This document shows, piece by piece, positions 7,728 through 64,000 of a stretch of 64,000 bases of DNA (position 1 is its first letter; each line of letters begins with the position of its first letter). The translations under genes were made by a program, and so were the position numbers. The notes beneath the pieces were generated by a model. That model saw only the letters and a program-made list of their open reading frames with translations, had not been told where the DNA came from and ran no database searches. The DNA is from Prevotella sp. E13-27. Its GTDB lineage: Bacteria; Bacteroidota; Bacteroidia; Bacteroidales; Bacteroidaceae. Where the stretch lies: the NCBI RefSeq assembly GCF_023217965.1, contig NZ_JALPSC010000001.1:2164938-2228937 (forward strand), read 5' to 3'.

Positions 7728-10700
7728 TCAGCGTTCGGAACTGACGGGCGCCGAGGTGATTGTTGTCCATAGCCTCGACCTCTTCAAGGTACTTCATGGC
7801 CTTTTCTTTGTCGCCAATGCCGTAATAGCCCAGGGCGAGCATGTACAGGCAGTGGATGCGGTTAAGCTCGTCGAGGTTGCCCTCCCATACCAGCAAGTCG
7901 GGCAGCGACACGGCAAAGTAGTCCATCACCACATGGTCGAAGATGTGCTGCTTGCCGTAGTTGATGAGCTTATTGAACAGTGAGCGGGCCTTATCTTCCT
8001 GACCGAGCTTGCGGTAGCACAGGGCGGCATAGAAGATTTTATCGGGCTTGGCATCGTTGTAGTACATAGCGGCTGCGGGCTCGGTTGGGCCTACGGTGCC
8101 TTTCAAGAAATACTCATTTGCCTTCTCTTTCTCGCCCAGCATCTCGTGGGCAATGCCCAAGAAGTAGTAGAAATCATTATCCTGCGAACCATATAGTTTT
8201 CCCTCGCCAAGATGATGTGGGAATACAAGACACTCCTCAAGTAAGCTAGTGGCAGTCTTAATACTCCCCTCGCCCTTTGGAGAGGGGCTGGGGGTGAGGT
8301 TCCTCTTCGCAATCTCCAAACGACACATCTGATATTGACCGCTCACCTTGCCTTCGCCACCTTCCCAAGGATGGAAGATGCGGTTATCGATGAGCTGCTT
8401 AGCCTCTTCGTAGCGACCCAGCATGTTTAGCAGGGTGGCATGTTCGAGTACGAGGTCGTCGCGGCGCTCTATCAGCTCGGCATGCTGCTCGTAGAAGGCC
8501 AGGCGCTGGGCATGCGGACGGTGCAGGCGCTTGTAAAGCTGGTCGAGCTCCATGAATATGCGCTCATCGTTCTCATCCAGGTGGAAGGCGCGCTCCATGT
8601 ATTCGAGTGCCTGCTCATGATTACCCTGTTTGTTAAAACGAGCGAGAGCCAGGTTGCGCCATACGGTTGGGAAGTTAGGATCAATCTTGGCAGAGATTTC
8701 CCAATTCTCGATGGCTAAATCGTACTGGCGCTTATCGTAGTACAAGCAGCCCAGATAATAAGGTGCCTTGGATATCTTTAGTTTAGAGTTTAGAGCGTAG
8801 AGCGTAGAGTTTGCTACCGCCTTAGAGAGGGCTATGACATCCTCTAGGCGGTTGGGGAAACAATAGGCTGAATCGACAGCCTCGGCCTTGGTTACTAACT
8901 CCTGTGCATCTTCGATACCTGTAATATTTGCCAGATAATAATAGGTGAGTGGCGACTCCTCCACCCCACGATTGATGGCGGTTTGCAGCACCAGCGCAGC
9001 CTCGCTGTTCAAACCGGCCTGCGTATAATCGAGGGCTGTTTCGTGGTAGTTATAGATGTTGCCGTGCATGAGTTCTACCATACGATCGAGTGGCGCGTTA
9101 TCGCCCGTGAGCAGGTGCTCCTCGACCATGCACACATAGTTGAATGGATCGATGGTGTACGACTCTTGAATCCAAGCCAAAGCCTCGTCCTTTCTACCCA
9201 TTTTGCGCAGCACGGCAGCCTTCATGGCACGTGCCTTATGGTTGTGACTGTTGCTGATGAGGGCGCGTTCGAGTTCGTCGAGCGCATCCTCCCATTTCTC
9301 AGCAGCGATGCTGATGCAGGCAGCCTCGAAATAGCCGGCATCGGCCCAACCCTTGTTCCAGGTAGATTTCCAGAAGTAATTGTAGGCCACACCATACTGC
9401 CCCAGCAGCTTATTAACCACACCCAGATAAAACAGCGCCTCGCCATCGTAGGGGTTGGGATTGCGTTTTTTCTGAACCTTTACAGCTGTTTCGAGATAGC
9501 CCTTAGCCTTATCGAAACGGGCACGGCGCAGGTACCACAGGCCCATCTGCATGTTGCAGCGGTAATCCAGCGGATCGCGGCGCAGGGCCTCCTCGTAATA
9601 ATCGAGTGCGCTCCAGGTGGCGTGACGGTACTGCTCGAGGTGCAAACCTGTGAGGTAAAGCTGATCGATGGTCTTGGTATCCTGTGGAGAGAGCGCAGCC
9701 TCGGCAGCATCGGGAATAGGACGGATTTCGTCAGCCTCGGCATGCCACTCCAACAGCGGATACATACGGGGATTCTCAGGACGATCGATAGTCAAGAACA
9801 TATCGCTAAACTGCGCATCCTGGGTATCCACCGTCTCTATGAGCACCTCCTCGGGCGAGAGGGTTACCACCTGATTATAATACTCATGACCATATTTATC
9901 CTCAAGCACTATCCTTACCTCTTTCTTCGAAGTGGCCAGAATCTTAAAGGTGGTATGGGTAGCGTCGGGCTGCTCGATGTTCATCACGAAATCCTTCGAG
10001 GCCTGCTTAACGATGCCCACCTCGCGATAAGGCATAAAATACTGCACAAACTGTTTTTCCTCGTATGGCATCAGCCAGGTAAAGTCGGGCTGGTTCTCGG
10101 TATAAACACCTGCCATCAGCTCGATGTAAGGACGGAAGCCCTCGCGATCGATATGCCACTGAGCCATCTCCTCGGGTGTAGCCTCGTCGGTGAGGTTGCG
10201 GTCCCAGGCGCGACCAAAGTCGCCGTTACCCCATGTCCATTGCTTTTTACCTGGCGAGTAGTGGTGACTGGCCACATGCAGCATGCCTGCCTGGGTATCG
10301 TTCTCGTAACCACCCTCGAAATCAAAGCGTGAGTTGACGCCCATATAGCTGGTAGGCACAAAGATATTCTTATAGTTCGAGATATCTACACCAGCCGAAT
10401 AGTCCATCTTATAATAGGTTCCTGTGGCTATAGGAAAACTGCTAACGGCACGCTTACCATGATCGAACACGGCATTGATATCGGGTGGAAACACACTCTG
10501 GTAGGCATCGTTAACCTCAACGGCTGGGTTGGCCCACCACAGGAAGGTCTGAGGCAGATTGGTGCGATTGCTTACACGACCCTGAATCTCAAGATAAGCA
10601 CAGCCAGGGCGCAGGGTAAAGCCTGCCATACCCTTTTGGTGGAACATACGCTCCATCTCGTTTACCCATACGGTGATAGAGCCATCCTCGTTCTCGACAA

Positions 10701-11097
10701 TGGTGCTATCAACAGGCATGTAGGTGGATGGACGATGGTGCTGGGGCCAGTTAAACTCGATACCGCCACTAATCCAAGGACCAGCCAAGCCTACCAATGC
10801 GGGCTTAATAACATGGTTGTAATACACAAAGTGGCGCTGCTTAATCTTATCGTAAGCCATCTGCACACGTCCGCCCAGTTCGGGCAGTATCATCACCTTG
10901 ATATACTCGTTCTCGATATAAACGGCCTTGTACTCTTTATCCACTTTCTCGTCGCTCATTGACTCGATAACGGGATAAGGATATACCACGCCACTAGAAC
11001 CCTGATAAACACGTTTTTCCAGGAACATCGGGTTCTTTTCGGGCTTTCCTACTTCGTAGGTAGGAATAGTCACGATTTCTCTCCAAGCTTTTACCAT
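7711..11097 (-). CDS. DUF5107 domain and TPR-repeat protein
   Basis: A 1,128-residue protein without a signal peptide, so probably cytoplasmic. The N-terminal ~340 residues (IKVMILPELGGRVQMAYDK, GGIEFNWPQHH) match DUF5107, a galactose-mutarotase-like fold that probably binds or acts on sugars. From about residue 480 to the end are tetratricopeptide repeats. It is the second gene after a sugar porter (58-base gap) and is probably co-transcribed. Two short repeat-derived peptides interrupt the TPR region: around 762-774 (NSTLYALNSKLKIS) and around 931-946 (LTPSPSPKGEGS). They look like inserted DNA repeats that kept the frame. The biochemical activity is not known to me. Confidence 0.85.
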   Translation of the reverse strand: MVKAWREIVTIPTYEVGKPEKNPMFLEKRVYQGSSGVVYPYPVIESMSDEKVDKEYKAVYIENEYIKVMILPELGGRVQMAYDKIKQRHFVYYNHVIKPALVGLAGPWISGGIEFNWPQHHRPSTYMPVDSTIVENEDGSITVWVNEMERMFHQKGMAGFTLRPGCAYLEIQGRVSNRTNLPQTFLWWANPAVEVNDAYQSVFPPDINAVFDHGKRAVSSFPIATGTYYKMDYSAGVDISNYKNIFVPTSYMGVNSRFDFEGGYENDTQAGMLHVASHHYSPGKKQWTWGNGDFGRAWDRNLTDEATPEEMAQWHIDREGFRPYIELMAGVYTENQPDFTWLMPYEEKQFVQYFMPYREVGIVKQASKDFVMNIEQPDATHTTFKILATSKKEVRIVLEDKYGHEYYNQVVTLSPEEVLIETVDTQDAQFSDMFLTIDRPENPRMYPLLEWHAEADEIRPIPDAAEAALSPQDTKTIDQLYLTGLHLEQYRHATWSALDYYEEALRRDPLDYRCNMQMGLWYLRRARFDKAKGYLETAVKVQKKRNPNPYDGEALFYLGVVNKLLGQYGVAYNYFWKSTWNKGWADAGYFEAACISIAAEKWEDALDELERALISNSHNHKARAMKAAVLRKMGRKDEALAWIQESYTIDPFNYVCMVEEHLLTGDNAPLDRMVELMHGNIYNYHETALDYTQAGLNSEAALVLQTAINRGVEESPLTYYYLANITGIEDAQELVTKAEAVDSAYCFPNRLEDVIALSKAVANSTLYALNSKLKISKAPYYLGCLYYDKRQYDLAIENWEISAKIDPNFPTVWRNLALARFNKQGNHEQALEYMERAFHLDENDERIFMELDQLYKRLHRPHAQRLAFYEQHAELIERRDDLVLEHATLLNMLGRYEEAKQLIDNRIFHPWEGGEGKVSGQYQMCRLEIAKRNLTPSPSPKGEGSIKTATSLLEECLVFPHHLGEGKLYGSQDNDFYYFLGIAHEMLGEKEKANEYFLKGTVGPTEPAAAMYYNDAKPDKIFYAALCYRKLGQEDKARSLFNKLINYGKQHIFDHVVMDYFAVSLPDLLVWEGNLDELNRIHCLYMLALGYYGIGDKEKAMKYLEEVEAMDNNHLGARQFRTLITASL
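8262..8306. repeat. Palindromic GC-rich repeat inserted in frame in the DUF5107/TPR gene
   Basis: CCCCTC and GAGGGG arms around CCCTTTGG (about 8262-8306), followed by CTGGGGGTGAGG. On the gene strand it encodes LTPSPSPKGEGS, a composition quite unlike the surrounding TPR helices. Elements of this type recur in Bacteroidota genomes (general knowledge); only one copy was noticed here. Confidence 0.75.
8778..8813. repeat. Short tandem repeat (TTTAGAG / CGTAGAG) inserted in frame in the DUF5107/TPR gene
   Basis: Seven-base units TTTAGAG, TTTAGAG, CGTAGAG, CGTAGAG, TTTG stand in line. The gene strand reads STLYALNSKLK, which breaks the TPR pattern. The length keeps the reading frame. Confidence 0.7.
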
Positions 11098-54895: not shown

Positions 54896-54980
54896 GGAGA
54901 GATGGTAGAGTGGTCGATTACAGCGGTCTTGAAAACCGCCGTGCTGAGAGGCACCGGGGGTTCGAATCCCTCTCTCTCCG
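54896..54980 (+). tRNA. tRNA-Ser (anticodon UGA)
   Basis: An 85-base cloverleaf. The acceptor stem GGAGAGA pairs with TCTCTCC, discriminator G. The anticodon arm is GCGGT-CTTGAAA-ACCGC with TGA at 54930-54932, decoding UCA. A long variable arm (CGTGCTGAGAGGCACCG) is typical of serine tRNAs, and the T arm is GGGGG-TTCGAAT-CCCTC. CCA is not encoded. It marks the border of the accessory island; such tRNA 3' ends are common integration sites. Confidence 0.95.
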
Positions 54981-54993
54981 CTTAATTAAATTG

Positions 54994-55123: not shown

Positions 55124-56806
55124 TTATCTCCGCTTTGTGGTGTATTCTACGTTGATAAATCCACAACGGCGAAGAAGCTCTACTGCTTCCACAAAATTAG
55201 GATCCAGATTGTTCCTTTCTTTTTCGTAGTTGTTCACAGAAACGTACCTGGCTGTGGCTGGATTTATAGGCTTTCCAGTCTTCGACTCAAAGAACTCTGC
55301 TGCTATGCCCATGTCCTCTGGAGTGTTTCTTGCATCTGACAACAGGCATCGTATAATATGACCTAACAGAACATTCTTTCCTCTCCAGTTTATTTTGGAA
55401 GAAGGTGGATAAGGTTCTCCTTGTCCGCTGAAACGATATACAAAAAGAGACTTGGAGGAAGTCGTATCTATAAGTCCCTCTTTCGTCAGTTCGTCATATA
55501 GCAGAGACAGACATTTGGGTAGTTCTCTATCCTTCTCTTCGCTATTGCTTCCTTTAAGTTTTGAGTTAAGAACCGTGACATACCTTTTCTCCCTTAAGAA
55601 TATGCTATCGTTACCATCAAAAGTTTGATCTTCGTGCCTGGTGTCTTGATGCTCTTCCACTATAATTGTCTGTTGCTCATCATCAGTGTATAATGACACA
55701 ATCCAGTTCAGTAAATCCTTGTCTTCGTCACTGAGCAATCCATCGACCATATGATAGACGGATTTCATTTGATGAAGGGATAAGGTTATGAAGTCCAGAA
55801 AGTCTTGGCATTCCAATTCCACATAATCCCAATCTCCATTCTCCCATTTTTGCTCGATAGCAGCAGCGAATGATTTGCCTCCAGCATTTCCGAATCGCTG
55901 GCTTATCTCATTTTTGTGGCTCCTTAATGCAGACAGGAGGATTTTGTAAGTCTGAATTTTGCAGTTGTATGTAATGGATGAAAGGGATATTGATATGGTT
56001 CCTTCTTTCTCGGACTCTAACAAGAACTGCTTCCAAGGCTTTCTCTTACTATCAGTATAATGGGTATATGGTCTTGTCTCAGCAATTGTATCACAGTTGT
56101 ATTGTTGCCTACCTATCCGATGTCTGCGTGCAAAGCTCTTTGTGTCGAATCCGCAAAGAAGTTTTATCCTTTCTACGGCGAACTGTTCTTCTTCCTCTTT
56201 CGGGATATTTCTGAAAAATGGTGCTAACCCAGTATCTGTCAGCCAGAGATTTTCCAACTGAATCTTTTTGCCACGTTTGATTATCCTAACGTCCTTTTCA
56301 CTCTTGATTCCAAACAGTAGATAGCGCATCGTCCACAATATTCCCATTAGATCTTGGCAGTCTGTTTCTTTTAATGCTGCTATAAATGCAGTCTTGTCCT
56401 GGGCCTGAATAGAGTTTATGACACTTGTGTAAACATTTGATGGAAGTCTGTTGTAGTGGTCAATGATATTACGGGTGTCGGTATGTCCTAATGTGCATAA
56501 GAAGTCAAAGGCTTCATCGTGCGTCAAAAAAGATTCTGGCTCTTTGCCGTTGTCTCTCAGATATACATAGAGACTATAAATGTGTTTCTTAAGATTCGCA
56601 TGAAGAACCTGAAAGAACGGAATGACCACTCCTTCACTGAAAGCAATGTATTCAAAGAGGCATGGCAGATAAGGAGCAAGAGCAGAAGGTTCATGCTCTT
56701 CTGACCAACACAAGAGTTTTCTGATTCTCCCAATCCCCAAGTCTACATTTGGAAGGATGGTCAGATGCTCTTGATCCGTTTTTATGTTGCCTGTTTCTGT
56801 TAACAT
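55124..56806 (-). CDS. Unrecognised 560-residue protein in the restriction-modification island
   Basis: 560 residues, soluble and helix-rich, without signal peptide or membrane segment. I do not recognise the family. The N-terminal ~190 residues are mostly helical (LAPYLPCLFEYIAFSEGVV). A middle basic part contains SFARRHRIGRQQYNCDT, and about 255-390 is mixed (KPWKQFLLESEKEGTISISLSS). The C-terminal ~130 residues (SKINWRGKNVLLGHIIRCLL, then EFFESKTGKPINPATARYVS) resemble helical DNA-binding-type tails of other Bacteroidota element proteins, but this is impression only. It is transcribed divergently from hsdR. It may be an accessory defence or regulatory gene. Confidence 0.7.
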   Translation of the reverse strand: MLTETGNIKTDQEHLTILPNVDLGIGRIRKLLCWSEEHEPSALAPYLPCLFEYIAFSEGVVIPFFQVLHANLKKHIYSLYVYLRDNGKEPESFLTHDEAFDFLCTLGHTDTRNIIDHYNRLPSNVYTSVINSIQAQDKTAFIAALKETDCQDLMGILWTMRYLLFGIKSEKDVRIIKRGKKIQLENLWLTDTGLAPFFRNIPKEEEEQFAVERIKLLCGFDTKSFARRHRIGRQQYNCDTIAETRPYTHYTDSKRKPWKQFLLESEKEGTISISLSSITYNCKIQTYKILLSALRSHKNEISQRFGNAGGKSFAAAIEQKWENGDWDYVELECQDFLDFITLSLHQMKSVYHMVDGLLSDEDKDLLNWIVSLYTDDEQQTIIVEEHQDTRHEDQTFDGNDSIFLREKRYVTVLNSKLKGSNSEEKDRELPKCLSLLYDELTKEGLIDTTSSKSLFVYRFSGQGEPYPPSSKINWRGKNVLLGHIIRCLLSDARNTPEDMGIAAEFFESKTGKPINPATARYVSVNNYEKERNNLDPNFVEAVELLRRCGFINVEYTTKRR

Positions 56807-57121: not shown

Positions 57122-59935
57122 ATGGCACCAGAAGAAAAGGCAAGGCAGATAATAGACAAGAAACTTGAAGATGCTGGTTGGGTAATCCAGGATCGTCAGG
57201 AGTTCAACCCTATTGCGTCTCTTGGAGTCGCAGTCCGTGAATACCTCACAAGTGACAATGAAGAGGTTGATTATGCCCTTTTCATTGAAGGTACTCCTGT
57301 AGGTGTAATTGAAGCCAAGCCCGATGAAGAGGGCGTTCACCTTGTGACAGCAGCACATGAGCAGAATGAAGGATATGTAAGTTCTGGTTTGAAATGGGCC
57401 AATTATTCCAAGAAGGACATGCGCTTCATCTACGAGGCGACAGGTGTATTGACACACTTCACAGACTTGCTTGACCCGAAGCCCAGAGTGCGTAAGCTGT
57501 TCTCATTTCACAGGCCAGAGCAGTTACTGTATTGGATAAAAGATTATAAGTTCAATGGAAAGAAAACGCTGCGAGGTCGATTGCAAGAGTTCCCTGAACT
57601 GCCAGAAGAAGGATTCCGTGAATGTCAGATAAAGGCTATATTAAACCTTGAAAAGTCTTTCGGTAACAACAAACCACGTTCATTGGTTCAGATGGCAACT
57701 GGTGCAGGAAAAACCTATACCGCCATCACCAACACATATCGGCTGTTGAAGTTCGCAAAAGCCAAGCGAATACTATTTCTTGTTGACACGAAGAACCTTG
57801 GAATGCAAGCCGAAACGGAATACAAGAACTACCAGCCTTACGATAGCACAGAGAAACTGAATGCCCTATATAACATTCAGCGCATTCAGACATCGAACAT
57901 TCCTCAAAGCACCCAAATCTGCATAAGTACGATTCAGCGTGTATATTCTATGCTGACAGGAAACCTATCTTCCATGCCAGATGACGTGGACGATGAACCA
58001 GGTACAACAACAGGAACAGAGCGAGAGGTGAAATACAATTCAGAATATCCACCAGAGTTCTTCGATTTTATCATTATAGACGAGTGCCACCGTTCCATTT
58101 ACAACCAATGGAGGCAAGTGCTGGAGTATTTCGATGCTTTCCTTATTGGACTGACCGCTACTCCGAACCAACATACATACGCCTTCTTTGACGAGAATGT
58201 TGTAAGTGAATACACCCATGAGGAAGCTGTTTCAGATGGTGTGAACGTGGGCGCACTTGGTACTTTCAGCATAGAAACGGAAAAGACCAAACAGGGCGGC
58301 ATCGTTGCAAAGATTAACCAGCAGATAGAGATTCGTGACAAACGGACAAGGAAACAGCGTTGGGAGTCAACAGATGAAGATATAGCTTACGATGGGAAAG
58401 ACCTTGACAACTCCGTAGTCAATAAATCGCAAATCAGGGTAATCCTAAAGACTTTCAAGGATAACTGGAAGAAATGGGAATACTACAAGGACAGGAAGGA
58501 ATTGCCAAAGACGCTCATATTTGCCAAGAACGACAGTCATGCAGACGATATTGTTGCTTTGGTGAAAGAGGTGTTCAATGAAGGTAACGACTTCTGCAAG
58601 AAGATAACTTTCAAGTCCGAAGAAAACGAAACCTCACTACTCTATGCTTTCCGCAATGAATTCTATCCTCGTGTGGCTGTAACAGTGAACAAGATAGCAA
58701 CAGGTACTGATGTAAAAGCCATTGAGATACTTCTGTTTATGCGTGACATCCGCAGTGAGAACTACTATGAGCAGATGCTGGGAAGGGCAAGGAGGACAAT
58801 GGACTTGGAAAGTCTGAAACAGGCTTCGCCGTCAGCAAGTACCCCCAAATTAGGGTATGTGATTGTAGATGCTGTGGGCGTAACCAAATCTGACAAATGT
58901 GCTGCCAAGAAGAAATGTGGTGGTGATGTGAAACCAACCGTCTCATTCAAGTCACTGCTTGATGCGGTGGTGACTGGAGACATATCGGAAGAAACCTTCA
59001 GCACCCTTGGTACACGACTTGAACATATTGACAGGGTACTTACCGACAAGGAGCGTGAGGAATTCAAGAAGGTATCTGGAGGAACGTCACTTCGACAGCT
59101 GTCTACTAATATTAAGAACGTACATGATGTTGATAGGATAGAAGATACGATAAAGACTGAACATCCCGAATATCCTACCCTTTCGCCCGTAGATAAGGAA
59201 GAAGTAAGAAAGGATGTTATCAAGAAACGTTGCCTTGAAGCAGCAAAACCCATCTATGAGCCGAAAGTCCGTGATTTCCTGATGAACGTCCGTAACTCTA
59301 ACGACCAGACCATTGATCCAGCATTGGATCATCTGACATACGCAGGTTTTGAAACCGACGTGGCGGAGACCAAAGCTAAGGTTCGTGAGACCCTGAAAGA
59401 GTTTATTGAGACCAATAAAGACGAGATAACAGCTCTCAACATCATATATCATCAGGACTATCGAAACCGCCACATTACCGAAGCAATGATACATGAGCTT
59501 TACGACAAGATGCAACGTTACAACAATATGCTCAATGGTAGTTTGATATTCTCGGCATACTCAGATATGACCCGCAAGAAAACTGTTCTTAAGGAACTGG
59601 TTGACATCATTCAGATTATCAAGTATGAGTGGGGACAGATACCAGAGATATACCCCTTTGCAGATATGGTGAAAAAACGCTACAAGGAATGGATCTTCGA
59701 GCGTAATGCCAACAAGGGAGGTGTCCGTGGTGCAGGAACAGCCCCGTTTACAGAAGAACAGATGAAGTGGCTGGAAATGATACGCGACTATATTGCCATC
59801 AATGCCAGTTTCCACGTTGATGCTCTAAAGAGCGGTGAGTTTAACAAGCTCGGAGGAACGGCAAAATACTACAGCCTCTTTGGTAGTCAGTGGAAAGACA
59901 TCATCATTGAGTTAAACCAGAAATTAGTAGCATAA
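57122..59935 (+). CDS. hsdR: Type I restriction enzyme R subunit
   Basis: A 937-residue motor and nuclease subunit that translocates and cuts DNA lacking the host methylation pattern. The N-terminal nuclease has VDYALFIEGTPVGVIEAKPDE (D...ExK, about 50-70). SF2 helicase motifs are I MATGAGKT (near 192), II DECHRS (near 320), III GLTATP (near 343) and VI QMLGRARR (near 557). The C-terminal ~300 residues are the HsdR helical domain contacting HsdM. All motifs are intact. It stands 7 bases before hsdM, in one operon with hsdS. Confidence 0.95.
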   Translation: MAPEEKARQIIDKKLEDAGWVIQDRQEFNPIASLGVAVREYLTSDNEEVDYALFIEGTPVGVIEAKPDEEGVHLVTAAHEQNEGYVSSGLKWANYSKKDMRFIYEATGVLTHFTDLLDPKPRVRKLFSFHRPEQLLYWIKDYKFNGKKTLRGRLQEFPELPEEGFRECQIKAILNLEKSFGNNKPRSLVQMATGAGKTYTAITNTYRLLKFAKAKRILFLVDTKNLGMQAETEYKNYQPYDSTEKLNALYNIQRIQTSNIPQSTQICISTIQRVYSMLTGNLSSMPDDVDDEPGTTTGTEREVKYNSEYPPEFFDFIIIDECHRSIYNQWRQVLEYFDAFLIGLTATPNQHTYAFFDENVVSEYTHEEAVSDGVNVGALGTFSIETEKTKQGGIVAKINQQIEIRDKRTRKQRWESTDEDIAYDGKDLDNSVVNKSQIRVILKTFKDNWKKWEYYKDRKELPKTLIFAKNDSHADDIVALVKEVFNEGNDFCKKITFKSEENETSLLYAFRNEFYPRVAVTVNKIATGTDVKAIEILLFMRDIRSENYYEQMLGRARRTMDLESLKQASPSASTPKLGYVIVDAVGVTKSDKCAAKKKCGGDVKPTVSFKSLLDAVVTGDISEETFSTLGTRLEHIDRVLTDKEREEFKKVSGGTSLRQLSTNIKNVHDVDRIEDTIKTEHPEYPTLSPVDKEEVRKDVIKKRCLEAAKPIYEPKVRDFLMNVRNSNDQTIDPALDHLTYAGFETDVAETKAKVRETLKEFIETNKDEITALNIIYHQDYRNRHITEAMIHELYDKMQRYNNMLNGSLIFSAYSDMTRKKTVLKELVDIIQIIKYEWGQIPEIYPFADMVKKRYKEWIFERNANKGGVRGAGTAPFTEEQMKWLEMIRDYIAINASFHVDALKSGEFNKLGGTAKYYSLFGSQWKDIIIELNQKLVA

Positions 59936-59942
59936 GACCCAA

Positions 59943-61475
59943 ATGGCAGATTCTACAATAAGCAACAAAGTATGGAATATCGCTGGCATTCTGTTTGATG
60001 GCGGCGTTTCAAATAGTGACTACTTGGAGCAGATAACCTATCTTCTTTTCCTCAAAATGGTTGACGAGGACATGAAGATGCCCGAAGAACTCCGGTGGAA
60101 CAACTGGCGCAATCTGGAACTTCCTACCGATTGTGACTGGTCACTGCTCATGTCGAAGTCAGGCGAGGAACTGAAGGAACACTATGGAAAGATTCTCTCC
60201 CTTCTCTCTAAGAAAACAGGTATGATTGGCGAGATTTACCGTGGCGCACAGAATAAGATACAAACTCCAGAACATCTGCGTAAGGTTATCCAGATGATTG
60301 ACGGCACACAATGGAACTCCCTGAGTGAAGACGTGAAAGGCGACATCTATGAAAGCCTGTTGGAACGTATTGCTCAGGACACTAAGTCTGGTGCAGGGCA
60401 GTATTTCACCCCTCGTGCCCTGATTAAGACCATTGTAAAATGCGTCAATCCCGAACTTGGAAAGGTCATCGTAGACCCATGCTGCGGTTCTGGAGGTTTC
60501 TTACTTGCTGCTAAAGATTTTTTGCAAGGAAAATACACAACGATGACAGGCAAGCAGACCGATGACTTGAAACTGCATACTTTTTATGGAACCGAGATTG
60601 TTCCTAACACCTATCGACTCTGTCTGATGAACTTGCTGTTGCATGGTATCGGTGAGTTTGGCGGTGTGCCTCCCATCAAGTGTGCAGATTCGCTTGCTTC
60701 TGCTCCTGGTGACAATGATCTTTGTGAATATGTGATGACCAATCCTCCTTTCGGAAAGAAGTCATCAACGACGATTGAGGTACAGGAAGAGGATAAGGAA
60801 ACTGGTGAAATGGTCACAAAGCTCAAAAAAGCACAAGACAATTATGTAAGGGCAGACTTTATAGCTACCACGTCCAATAAACAATTGAACTTCTTACAAC
60901 ACATCAAATCGCTGCTGAAAGTTGGTGGAACAGCTGCCGTCGTGCTTCCTGATAACGTACTGTTTGAAGGTGGTGCAGGTGAAACTATCCGCAAGAACCT
61001 GTTAAAGACTTGCGACCTGCATACAATTCTCCGTCTGCCTACAGGATTGTTCTATGCCCAGGGTGTAAAGGCTAATGTGCTATTCTTTGAGAAGAAACCC
61101 ACCTCAGAGAATGCCCAGACTAAAGAGGTCTGGATTTACGACTATCGTACCAATGTCAAGCATACGCTGAAACAAAATCCTTTGCGCGAGACTGACCTTC
61201 AGGATTTTGTGGATTGCTATCGTCCCGATGACCGTCACCATCGTCAGGAAACCTATCATGCAGAGAGCAATCCAGATGGTCGTTGGCGTAAGTTCACATA
61301 CGACGAGGTGCTGGGACGTGACAAGACCAGTCTTGATATTACTTGGATAAAACAAGGTGAAGAGAGCGAAGATCTCTCGTTGCCAGAGCTTATCAGTATC
61401 ATCAAAGAGAAAAGCAACAACATCACTGAGGCTGTTGCAGAACTGGAGAAACTTCTTGAAAATCTTGAAAGCTAA
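59943..61475 (+). CDS. hsdM: Type I restriction-modification methyltransferase subunit
   Basis: 510 residues. The N-terminal helical domain (NKVWNIAGILFDGGVSNSDYLEQITYLLFLKMVDE) is followed by an N6-adenine methyltransferase: DTKSGAGQYFTPRALIKTIV, SAM motif VDPCCGSGGFLLAA (near 180) and catalytic NPPFGKK (near 266). Two copies with one HsdS methylate the target adenines. Stop and hsdS start share one base (TAATG). All motifs are intact. Confidence 0.96.
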   Translation: MADSTISNKVWNIAGILFDGGVSNSDYLEQITYLLFLKMVDEDMKMPEELRWNNWRNLELPTDCDWSLLMSKSGEELKEHYGKILSLLSKKTGMIGEIYRGAQNKIQTPEHLRKVIQMIDGTQWNSLSEDVKGDIYESLLERIAQDTKSGAGQYFTPRALIKTIVKCVNPELGKVIVDPCCGSGGFLLAAKDFLQGKYTTMTGKQTDDLKLHTFYGTEIVPNTYRLCLMNLLLHGIGEFGGVPPIKCADSLASAPGDNDLCEYVMTNPPFGKKSSTTIEVQEEDKETGEMVTKLKKAQDNYVRADFIATTSNKQLNFLQHIKSLLKVGGTAAVVLPDNVLFEGGAGETIRKNLLKTCDLHTILRLPTGLFYAQGVKANVLFFEKKPTSENAQTKEVWIYDYRTNVKHTLKQNPLRETDLQDFVDCYRPDDRHHRQETYHAESNPDGRWRKFTYDEVLGRDKTSLDITWIKQGEESEDLSLPELISIIKEKSNNITEAVAELEKLLENLES

Positions 61476-62935
61476 TGGACACAAAGAAACTTCGCCAAAA
61501 GATACTCGACCTTGCCATTCGTGGTAAGTTGGTTCCACAAGACCCTAATGACGAGCCTGCATCTGTACTATTGGAACGAATCAAGGCAGAAAAAGAACGC
61601 TTAATCAAGGAAGGGAAGATTAAGCGTTCCAAGAAGTCTGCTTCCGATACGTCCCATTATGAGAACCTGCCTTTCGAGATTCCTGAAAGTTGGGTATGGA
61701 CTACAATAGAAGAAGTCACTCCATCTTTGCAATACGGAACATCAGAGAAATCAAAGTCTTCTGGAGATATTGCTGTTCTAAGAATGGGCAATATTACAAG
61801 AAAAGGGACTATTGACTATTCTGATTTGGTTTACACTTCTAATAAGGCAGATATTGAAAAACTCCGATTAAAGGCAGGAGATATACTGTTTAATCGGACT
61901 AATAGTAGCGAATGGGTTGGAAAAACTGCGATCTATAGAGGCGAAGTACCATCTATTTATGCTGGTTACATTATTCGTATGACTCCTATTTTCTTGGATT
62001 GTGAATATGTGAATATGGTGATGAATAGTCAATATGAGAGGGACTGGTGCAACTTTGTTAAAACAGATGGAGTAAACCAGTCAAACATAAACTCTCAAAA
62101 ACTTGGTCAGTTTTATATTCCCATTCCTCCCATTGAAGAACAAAAGCGTATCGTTGAAACCGGAAACTATTGGCTTCATTTAGTTGAAAGTATTGAATCC
62201 AACAAGAAGGATATTATCAATACCATTACAAAAGCCAAACAAGAAGTGTTGAGGATGGCTATTTGTGGAGAATTGGTATCACAAGATCCAACCGATGAAC
62301 CAGCCATTGAGTTACTTAAACGTATCAACTCGAATATCGAAATTCCTTGTGATAACCCCCATTATCCCTTTGATATTCCTCAAAGTTGGTGCTGGATTAA
62401 GCTTGGAGCGCTTTGTTCTTTCCTGTCACGAGGTAAATCGCCCAAATATTCAGAAGAGCGGAAATATCCTGTTTTCGCTCAAAAGTGCAATTTGTATAAT
62501 GGAGATATTTCCCTTGAACAGGCTCGCTTTTTGGATCCCAGCACATTATCAAAATGGGATGATATATATAAGTTGCGAGAAGGTGACGTGCTTATGAACT
62601 CAACAGGCACTGGAACTGTAGGCAGGACAAGAGTGTTTCACAGCGACTGTCTCGGAACATACCCTTTCGCCGTTCCTGATTCGCACGTGTCGGTTATAAG
62701 GACATTTGACAGCATAGAATCAAAATACATTCATGCTTATTTATCATCTAAAGGAACTCAGCGTTATCTTGAAGACAACTTGGCTGGGTCAACAAACCAA
62801 AAAGAACTATATATAGGTGTTTTGGATAATTTGTTAATTCCTCTCCCTCCCCAAAATGAACAAAAACGTATCGTAGAAGAAATTGATAGATATTTCAATA
62901 CTCTTGATAAAATCAAAGAATCCCTAACAGCTTAG
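61475..62935 (+). CDS. hsdS: Type I restriction-modification specificity subunit
   Basis: 486 residues with two target-recognition domains, each reading half of a bipartite DNA site. An N-terminal conserved helix (LRQKILDLAIRGKLVPQDPNDEPA) is followed by TRD1 (about 60-205, beginning HYENLPFEIPESWVW), the central helix (IPPIEEQKRIVE ... EVLRMAICGELVSQDPTDEPA, about 207-285), TRD2 (about 293-455, beginning NPHYPFDIPQSWCW) and the distal helix (LPPQNEQKRIVEEIDRYF). The start of TRD2 carries TAACCCCCATTATC, which recurs beyond the recombinase. It is more AT-rich than its neighbours. Probably subject to specificity switching. Confidence 0.94.
   Translation: MDTKKLRQKILDLAIRGKLVPQDPNDEPASVLLERIKAEKERLIKEGKIKRSKKSASDTSHYENLPFEIPESWVWTTIEEVTPSLQYGTSEKSKSSGDIAVLRMGNITRKGTIDYSDLVYTSNKADIEKLRLKAGDILFNRTNSSEWVGKTAIYRGEVPSIYAGYIIRMTPIFLDCEYVNMVMNSQYERDWCNFVKTDGVNQSNINSQKLGQFYIPIPPIEEQKRIVETGNYWLHLVESIESNKKDIINTITKAKQEVLRMAICGELVSQDPTDEPAIELLKRINSNIEIPCDNPHYPFDIPQSWCWIKLGALCSFLSRGKSPKYSEERKYPVFAQKCNLYNGDISLEQARFLDPSTLSKWDDIYKLREGDVLMNSTGTGTVGRTRVFHSDCLGTYPFAVPDSHVSVIRTFDSIESKYIHAYLSSKGTQRYLEDNLAGSTNQKELYIGVLDNLLIPLPPQNEQKRIVEEIDRYFNTLDKIKESLTA
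62353..62366 (+). repeat. 14-base repeat at the hsdS TRD2 boundary, copy 1
   Basis: TAACCCCCATTATC encodes part of (D)NPHY at the beginning of the second target-recognition domain. An identical copy in the same reading frame and strand lies at 63813-63826 beyond the recombinase gene. CCCATTAT is also found at the TRD1 boundary (61653-61660). Confidence 0.8.
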
Positions 62936-62960
62936 ATGTTGTCGGGGACTCTTTGTTGAT

Positions 62961-63764
62961 TTACCAATTTACAATTCGGTCTACTATCTTCTGTTGTTCA
63001 CTTGCAGTTTTTCGAAGGTAGATTCTTGTGGTTTCAATACTTTCATGCCCCATGAGGTCAGCAAGGAGGGCAATATCATTGTAACGGTCAAGGAAGTTCT
63101 TAGCAAAACGGTGACGGAAGGAATGAGGATAGACTACTTTTTTGTCAAGTCCATATTTCTGAGCAAAATGTTTAAGTTGCTGTGATATTCCGCGAGTTGT
63201 TATCCGTTCTCCATATTTATTGAGGAACAGATAACCAGATTTGATGTTTCTACTCTCTATCCATGTTTTCGCTTCCACACAAAGAGACTTCGGGATATAC
63301 AAACGACGCAACTTGCCACCTTTGCTATAGATGTCGAGATACCCCATTTCCACATGCTCTGCTTTTATCTGCAACAATTCGCTTACCCTTGCACCAGTCG
63401 CTGCCATAAACCATACCACGAAGTACCATTCAGTATGGCCATCCTCCTTCAGCTTCCTTTTCAGGAATTTGTAGTCAGCGTTGCTAATGACGTTCTCCAG
63501 AAAGTTCTTTTGCTGCACCTTGACAAACTTCACTTTCAATTTGTCTTGCTTGCAGAACTCCAGGAACTTGTTAATACCTTGCAGACGAAGATTGACAGTC
63601 TGCGGTTTGAAATGCTCTACCAAATAGCCTTTGTAGGCTAAGAGGTTTTTCTTGTTCACCTCTCCGTATGTGGAAAGGTAATAATTGACCGTCCAAACAT
63701 AAGAATTGACGGTGTTCCTAGCCAAGTCCGACTTGCTAAGGAATGTTTTGAACTTTGTTACCAT
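62961..63764 (-). CDS. Tyrosine recombinase next to hsdS
   Basis: 267 residues: an N-terminal SAM-like core-binding domain (about 1-95) and a catalytic domain with Arg in ATGARVSELL (near 126), Lys in SKGGKLRR, His-x-x-Arg in HSFRHRFA (near 215), His in LMGHESIETT (near 240) and Tyr in RIYLR (near 249). The size matches the small XerC/D-like recombinases that sit beside hsdS genes and rearrange their specificity segments in many Bacteroidota. It converges with hsdS (25-base gap) and separates it from the second specificity segment. It lacks the arm-binding domain of large integrases, which favours local rearrangement over transfer. Confidence 0.92.
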   Translation of the reverse strand: MVTKFKTFLSKSDLARNTVNSYVWTVNYYLSTYGEVNKKNLLAYKGYLVEHFKPQTVNLRLQGINKFLEFCKQDKLKVKFVKVQQKNFLENVISNADYKFLKRKLKEDGHTEWYFVVWFMAATGARVSELLQIKAEHVEMGYLDIYSKGGKLRRLYIPKSLCVEAKTWIESRNIKSGYLFLNKYGERITTRGISQQLKHFAQKYGLDKKVVYPHSFRHRFAKNFLDRYNDIALLADLMGHESIETTRIYLRKTASEQQKIVDRIVNW

Positions 63765-63804
63765 ATCATCATTTATTTAAATGAGTACAGTAACAATATA
63801 ATAA

Positions 63805-64000
63805 TGTACGGCTAACCCCCATTATCAGAAGTTACCTAATGGGTGGGCTATGACATCAATGCAAAACATCTGTCAACTTCGAGACGGAGAGAAGCGAAAT
63901 GACAATCCAAGGATTAACCTTGATGTTAAATACTTGCGTGGTAAAAGCGAAGGAGAAATGGTAACAAGCGGAAAATATGTACCATCTGGTTCAACCATGA
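63805..64000 (+). pseudogene. Start-less hsdS specificity segment (silent cassette?), cut by window edge
   Basis: In one frame the sequence reads NPHYQKLPNGWAMTSMQ, then LRDGEKRND and VTSGKYVPSGSTM, a typical beginning of an HsdS target-recognition domain. It is preceded in frame by a stop codon (63802-63804) with no start codon or conserved N-terminal helix, so as it stands it is not a complete gene. An internal ATG at 63850 would delete the domain start. The first 14 bases match the TRD2 boundary of the intact hsdS. It runs open to the window end, so the 3' part is unseen. Confidence 0.75.
63813..63826 (+). repeat. 14-base repeat at the silent specificity segment, copy 2
   Basis: TAACCCCCATTATC, identical to 62353-62366 and in the same orientation, 1,460 bases away. 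It would give homologous joining in frame. Confidence 0.8.

Follow-up and report, generated by a model that had tools for sequence, protein, structure and literature searches.

Inverting hsdS loci, in which the specificity gene of a type I restriction-modification (R-M) system is rearranged, can rewrite the methylome of a cell at random. In Bacteroides fragilis, which belongs to the same bacterial order as the organism considered here, an inverting hsdS reportedly makes a type I R-M system phase-variable. The species is also named as an example of such systems in a pneumococcal study (PMC6620402). The excerpted accounts of the pneumococcal cod/SpnIII (Spn556II) locus describe hsdR, hsdM, hsdSA, an internal recombinase, three inverted repeats and six alleles, with 553 bp of hsdSB replacing the 3' part of hsdSA and hsdSC having inverted counterparts (PMC7096588, PMC7394358, PMC4948785, PMC6620402). 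A 10-bp core, ATTATGGGAA, is given for all three repeats; the 5 bp upstream of it read CTCTT in two of them and GAAAC in the other (PMC6620402). A stretch of 64,000 nucleotides from Prevotella sp. E13-27 (NCBI RefSeq assembly GCF_023217965.1, contig NZ_JALPSC010000001.1, positions 2,164,938 to 2,228,937; hereafter the window) contains part of a locus that is very probably an inverting type I R-M system, with a PsrA-like recombinase, dif-like recombination sites, two lanes insulated from each other by the centres of these sites, and up to six specificities.

The Prevotella locus shares with cod/SpnIII the inverting layout and the internal recombinase, and, judged from its sequence, it belongs with the inverting type I systems of the PsrA/CreX kind found in the pneumococcus. 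It differs from cod/SpnIII in belonging to another phylum and in that the differing bases are read here as the centre of the site, with one sequence per lane per locus. The similar stretches of hsdS1 and hsdS2 around the sites are also short and imperfect (81 bp around the C sites and 48 bp around the N sites, both at 81%), whereas the long repeats of pneumococcal strain D39 recombine even without CreX. hsdR, hsdM and an intact hsdS (hsdS1) share one direction and are followed by a tyrosine recombinase gene on the opposite strand, a lone target recognition domain (TRD), TRD2b, in the direction of hsdS1, and a second, inverted hsdS copy (hsdS2; Table 1). The final base of the window is the final base of its contig (C1), and the locus runs on only via a second contig (C2), whose first 8,615 bp are identical (100%) to the last 8,615 bp of C1; the locus so extended (C2:1-20000) is referred to as L014. 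A preliminary description of the window had named an intact hsdS, a small tyrosine recombinase and the start-less beginning of a TRD, all of which are present, the recombinase lying on the minus strand, which went unmentioned; the orientation shared by hsdS and the silent segment was borne out as well. Its guess that an inverted copy lies beyond the window proved right, as extension past position 64000 via C2 revealed hsdS2 together with further specificity segments and inverted repeats. The downstream hsdS copies lack start codons and are predicted to be silent: only 3 codons separate the upstream stop from the first conserved residues of TRD2b, and 6 codons lie between the upstream stop of hsdS2 and its first site motif. 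Read on into C2, TRD2b matches Methylase_S at 55.8 bits (cut-off 22), and its stop codon abuts that of hsdS2 (L014:8912-8917). Frames abut exactly, stop against stop, in 30 of 45 tail-to-tail pairs of HsdS frames within 60 nt of each other (that of L014 and 44 others).

Five short sites mark the domain starts of the locus, two of them of N type (at the TRD1 domains) and three of C type (at the TRD2 domains), and inverted repeats precede the 5' domain and sit between the domains of both hsdS genes. The 6-bp centre reads GTCCCA in the N-type and CCCCCA in the C-type sites. The sequence TAACCCCCATTATC has 7 exact occurrences in the genome, every one of them inside the three stretches in which this locus was assembled (backward control, 0), and the exact C- and N-type patterns, of 14 and 16 bp, are absent from the rest of the genome (backward controls, 0). 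The assembly itself also holds a possible trace of inversion. C1 opens with 156 bp identical to C2:9243-9398 and, from base 133 on, is the reverse complement of C2:8451-1. Viewed on the opposite strand, the start of C1 consists of the upstream region of the recombinase, site 2 and then TRD2c in place of TRD2b, the switch falling exactly at the shared site. C2 holds the alternative arrangement, and the two together match the products of a site 2/site 3 inversion; by its sequence, the hybrid junction at the start of C1 is a product of that event, with the reservation on copy number given below. Specificity shuffling by the adjacent recombinase, as proposed in the preliminary description, is the best reading.

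Related loci were collected by a contig scan with three aligned recombinases; it confirmed 202 stretches, of which the 80 best, together with the window's locus, make up a set of 81. The recombinases of these best 80 are 71-81% identical and come mainly from Bacteroidota, with some Firmicutes and others. HsdS-like frames are found in 69 of the 81 loci and none in 12. Around the recombinase the layout of the module is nearly constant: on its start side, long hsdS frames run in the same direction in 57 cases and in the opposite direction in 2, and on its end side 63 run in the opposite direction, while short frames on the start side are opposite in 46 cases and in the same direction in 6, with 5 more on the end side. 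The position of hsdM could be scored in 49 loci, the window's included, as the available DNA of the other 32 of the 81 shows no hsdM match up to 9 kb from the recombinase; hsdM lies on the end side in 28, as in the window, and on the start side in 21. In the latter arrangement, lone segments usually face the hsdS on the hsdM side. The module, as read from these arrangements, flips against hsdRM, and the same orientation of silent segment and hsdS1, which had been called unusual, is consequently one of two flip states. A pneumococcal figure legend gives creX in the same two orientations (PMC6620402). Four loci of the set (L079, L082, L085 and L094) encode recombinases (frame ~9944-10801) 77-78% identical to that of the window and show no HsdS-like frame in the flanking DNA examined; a similar 262-amino-acid (aa) gene lies upstream, and their targets are perhaps located in trans. 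Three others, in Chryseobacterium arachidis (L104), Gallibacterium salpingitidis (L112) and Peptoniphilus asaccharolyticus (L118), have recombinases 73-79% identical to the window's and lie outside the Bacteroidales, by transfer between distant hosts or by contamination.

Sites in these loci were located by an in-frame His-Tyr motif, the position in the frame and the best arm score; those with an arm score below 6 were dropped (in L067, L093 and L098), leaving 214 of 217 sites in 64 loci, and 17 of the 81 loci had no usable site. The near-identical loci L074 and L075 were both kept, as were probably miscalled sites, for instance in L127 (a C site, in a locus where another C pair was seen) and in L058 (a lone site, likewise with another candidate); the 184 N-C pairs and 24 combinations given below include such sites too. 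Within a locus, the 6-bp centre is identical in 44 of 44 N pairs (42 loci) and in 71 of 76 C pairs from 47 loci, a count that takes in lone segments. Of the five C pairs that deviate, two differ by one base, in L051, and three stem from an N-like short frame of L068 that was counted as C. N and C centres of the same locus are never identical (0/184 pairs, 46 loci) and differ at 2-4 of the 4 variable bases. Between loci, centres of the same class agree in 954 of 4,709 N pairs and 573 of 6,594 C pairs. When partners were shuffled 10,000 times with one pair per locus, ignoring kinship, agreement averaged 9.3 of 42 for N (maximum 19, observed 42) and 5.7 of 47 for C (maximum 15, observed 46). In the 45 loci with just one N and one C centre, 24 N/C combinations occur. 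On our own reading of their sequences, the pneumococcal repeats would fit as centres CTCTTA and GAAACA.

Same-locus pairs that differ in the two encoded residues still share their centre (N 11/11, C 21/26), and pairs with the same two residues agree in 33/33 (N) and 50/50 (C) cases within loci and in 740/943 and 378/590 between loci. By these comparisons, the constraint acts on the DNA. In 49 pairs of a lone segment and a C site, agreement per position is 0.10-0.59 in the left flank and 0.96-1.00 in the centre. A looser scan of 16 loci, which groups pairs by equal centres, so that identity is given by construction and chance groups also occur, showed, on our reading, ten loci whose domain starts fall into two centre groups (L014, L106, L112, L116, L118, L121, L126, L127, L129 and L133) and three with one group (L130, L131 and L136). 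Its examples from Firmicutes have TTTACA or TTTGCA for N and CTCTTA or CGCCTA for C.

In the mechanism that we propose, hsdS1, whose start overlaps the hsdM stop, would alone be expressed, and the locus-encoded PsrA-like recombinase situated between the hsdS copies would recombine the short sites at the start of each TRD. If these sites behave like Xer sites, only those with matching centres would exchange strands productively; one recombinase would then serve two insulated lanes, in which N- and C-domains are kept apart and domain position is thereby preserved. Inversion between sites 1 and 3 would carry TRD2c into hsdS1 and turn TRD2b round, a further C-C inversion could bring TRD2b into hsdS1, and an N-N inversion would exchange TRD1a and TRD1b. 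One N pair (hsdS1/hsdS2) and three C sites (hsdS1, TRD2b and hsdS2) would allow 2 x 3, that is up to six, HsdS proteins and methylation specificities, and a corresponding change of the methylome. The direct sites 1 and 2 could also excise the recombinase and lock the locus. The preliminary description had expected exchange between the two same-orientation copies to delete or swap sequence rather than invert it; this should hold for the sites within the window, whose recombination would excise the recombinase, but according to the map the segment would become invertible with hsdS1 after an inversion through hsdS2. More generally, we consider it fairly probable that the PsrA type of hsdS invertase is a Xer-like recombinase working as a single protein on dif-like sites embedded in the HsdS coding sequence, and that the two orthogonal 6-bp centres of each locus form an N/C address code, drifting between loci and kept within each, in Bacteroidota and at least some Firmicutes.

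The recombinase is 65.8% identical to a Streptococcus dysgalactiae protein annotated as PsrA. Residues R126, H214, R217, H240 and Y249, which we take to be catalytic, are among the columns invariant in three relatives. It matches XerC-like, XerA, XerD, XerH and integron integrase chains, while no NCBIfam model reached its cut-off against it, the XerA/C/D matches falling below theirs; by sequence it is Xer-like, not an assigned Xer. The dif site of E. coli is described, in the section cited, as 11-bp half-sites and a 6-bp centre (PMC5357621), and the Xer sites of Acinetobacter as ATAA-central region-TTAT, with recombination between closely related centres and none without, identical centres being sometimes insufficient (PMC11705084, in part). 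The ATAA-centre-TTAT motif is common to Xer/dif, the Acinetobacter plasmid Xer sites (xrs) and the locus described here, which differs from them in that its recombinase is locus-encoded, its sites lie inside coding sequence and its arms match partly. The TTAT arm is present in 205 of 214 sites. Because the match to the ATAA arm is partial and TTAT is partly forced by the required His-Tyr codons, the sites (ATAA-N6-TTAT) are, on sequence likeness, dif-like and not dif.

Several observations weigh against the mechanism proposed above. The ATAA arm is found in 58 of 73 C sites, 29 of 98 N sites and 6 of 43 lone sites, and the choice of sites used the arm score. In places, similarity also extends beyond the centres, with agreement of 0.39-0.80 (lone/C pairs) and 0.61-1.00 (N pairs) in the right flank and of 0.70-1.00 in the left flank of C/C pairs. 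The looser scan found nothing convincing in L132, L134 and L135, of which L134 and L135 are from Mycoplasmopsis. Loss of creX in strain D39 abolished the 15-bp inversion and part of the 333-bp one and left the 85-bp inversion unaffected (PMC6620402), whereas another group reports, from in vitro work as well, that PsrA acts at each of the three repeats (PMC7096588). The locus stands at both ends of C1, in opposite orientation; the homology of the ends stops inside the 3' end of a tRNA-Ser, where the start of C1 adjoins a 611-aa open reading frame (ORF) at the same 13-bp core, CCTCTCTCTCCGC. A second copy, a related element and an assembly fault were all considered, and the hybrid junction may derive from another copy of the locus or from a fault of assembly.

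Domains, moreover, do not keep strictly to one position. Comparison of 209 domains between loci (4,613 N-N, 6,145 C-C and 10,683 N-C pairs) gave identities of at least 80% in 24 N-N, 41 C-C and 2 N-C pairs, of at least 70% in 84, 234 and 27, and of at least 50% in 165, 492 and 162, respectively. The rarity of close N-C matches is consistent with lanes without being specific to them, because common descent alone enriches N-N and C-C pairs, and the N-C matches at 70% and above are themselves crossings. Near-identical domains occupy N and C positions inside L091 (88%; 7541/10148) and L092 (86%; 11391/12102), both of which retain position-specific centres, and N-C pairs at 47-63% occur within L105, L081, L078 and L052. 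The between-locus and L091/L092 matches contradict the strict separation of N and C domains that had been expected; as these alignments indicate, domains cross lanes by some route over evolution. In the DOMO process of Helicobacter pylori, domains likewise move between TRD1 and TRD2, which the cited part of the source explains by repeats common to both positions (PMC3077401), whereas here the two positions bear different centres and close N-C matches are rare.

The locus might invert and its identical centres nevertheless be a by-product of protein conservation or homologous recombination, with no address code. Homogenisation by recombination could equalise centres without any requirement for matching, the C and N sites of the full hsdS genes lie in the longer similar stretches given above, and one-sided flank similarity persists in several pair types. 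This explanation is unlikely, as lone segments share the centre despite little similarity in the left flank, centres are common even where residues differ, and N and C centres differ in all 184 pairs.

Excision and reintegration in the same orientation, which the cited portion of the literature gives for the pneumococcal tvr/SpnIV locus, would take the place of inversion, and sites 1 and 2, which flank the recombinase at a distance of 1,460 bp from each other, are indeed in direct orientation. Such excision would remove the recombinase itself, and it accords poorly with the inverted third site, with the hybrid junction, which reads as an inversion product, and with the 21 of 49 loci in which hsdM lies on the start side and the lone segments generally face the hsdM-side hsdS; as the working mechanism it is very improbable. 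The missing start codons of the extra hsdS copies might also mark the downstream segments as decaying remnants of duplicated hsdS genes that have lost the ability to switch. Open frames, identical site centres, an intact recombinase frame, the recurrence of the layout in relatives and the hybrid junction leave hardly any probability for this scenario. Decay of an unrelated hsdS was rejected on the open frames, the conserved sites and the recurrent layout.

The locus lies beside a tRNA-Ser gene and appears to be contained in an integrative element of ~63 kb. The 13-bp tRNA-Ser end CCTCTCTCTCCGC has three copies in the genome, one in the window (Table 1), one at C2:62556-62568 and one at C1:8988-9000; the copy on C2 adjoins a 462-aa integrase, which suggests that the element is bounded by copies of this tRNA end. 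The third copy, between the R-M locus and the 611-aa ORF near the start of C1, marks a second junction. For a 560-aa gene at 55124-56806, a family search gave no significant match. Two more hsdS genes are found in the same genome, at C2:296625-297713 and C2:1293551-1294528.

Table 1. Genes, domains and recombination sites of the locus. Positions refer to the window unless prefixed with C2; hyphens within sites separate arms and centre.
Feature	Position	Strand	Remarks
tRNA-Ser (anticodon tga)	54896..54981	+	3' 13 bp CCTCTCTCTCCGC at 54969-54981
hsdR	57122..59935	+	937 aa; ResIII, EcoEI_R_C
hsdM	59943..61475	+	510 aa; N6_Mtase, HsdM_N; stop codon overlaps hsdS1 start codon
hsdS1, intact	61475..62935	+	486 aa; two Methylase_S stretches, TRD1a and TRD2a
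N-type site, start of TRD1a	61646..61661	+	GATAC-GTCCCA-TTATG
C-type site 1, start of TRD2a	62351..62366	+	GATAA-CCCCCA-TTATC
Tyrosine recombinase (PsrA-like)	62961..63764	-	267 aa; Phage_integrase
C-type site 2, start of TRD2b	63811..63826	+	GCTAA-CCCCCA-TTATC; 46 bp upstream of recombinase start codon
TRD2b start, C-type domain, predicted silent	63811..64000, on to C2:8917	+	followed by inverted hsdS2, tail to tail
TRD2b frame, start-less	C2:8420-8914	+	stop to stop
hsdS2, start-less	C2:8915-10132	-	two domains (TRD1b, TRD2c); site 3 between TRD2c and TRD1b
C-type site 3, start of TRD2c	C2:9385-9400	-	GATAA-CCCCCA-TTATC
N-type inverted partner, start of TRD1b	C2:10102-10117	-	GATAA-GTCCCA-TTATG

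What is added to the known systems is the presence of dif-like sites with a 6-bp centre that is common within a class and locus, different between N and C, and variable between loci. A search of open-licence PubMed Central papers found no statement of such a centre rule, and no stated answer to how one recombinase keeps an N-domain out of the C place. If true, the centre rule would be a simple answer to this problem of domain position and might account for the break of the assembly at this locus, and silent domains and switch sites could be found from sequence alone.

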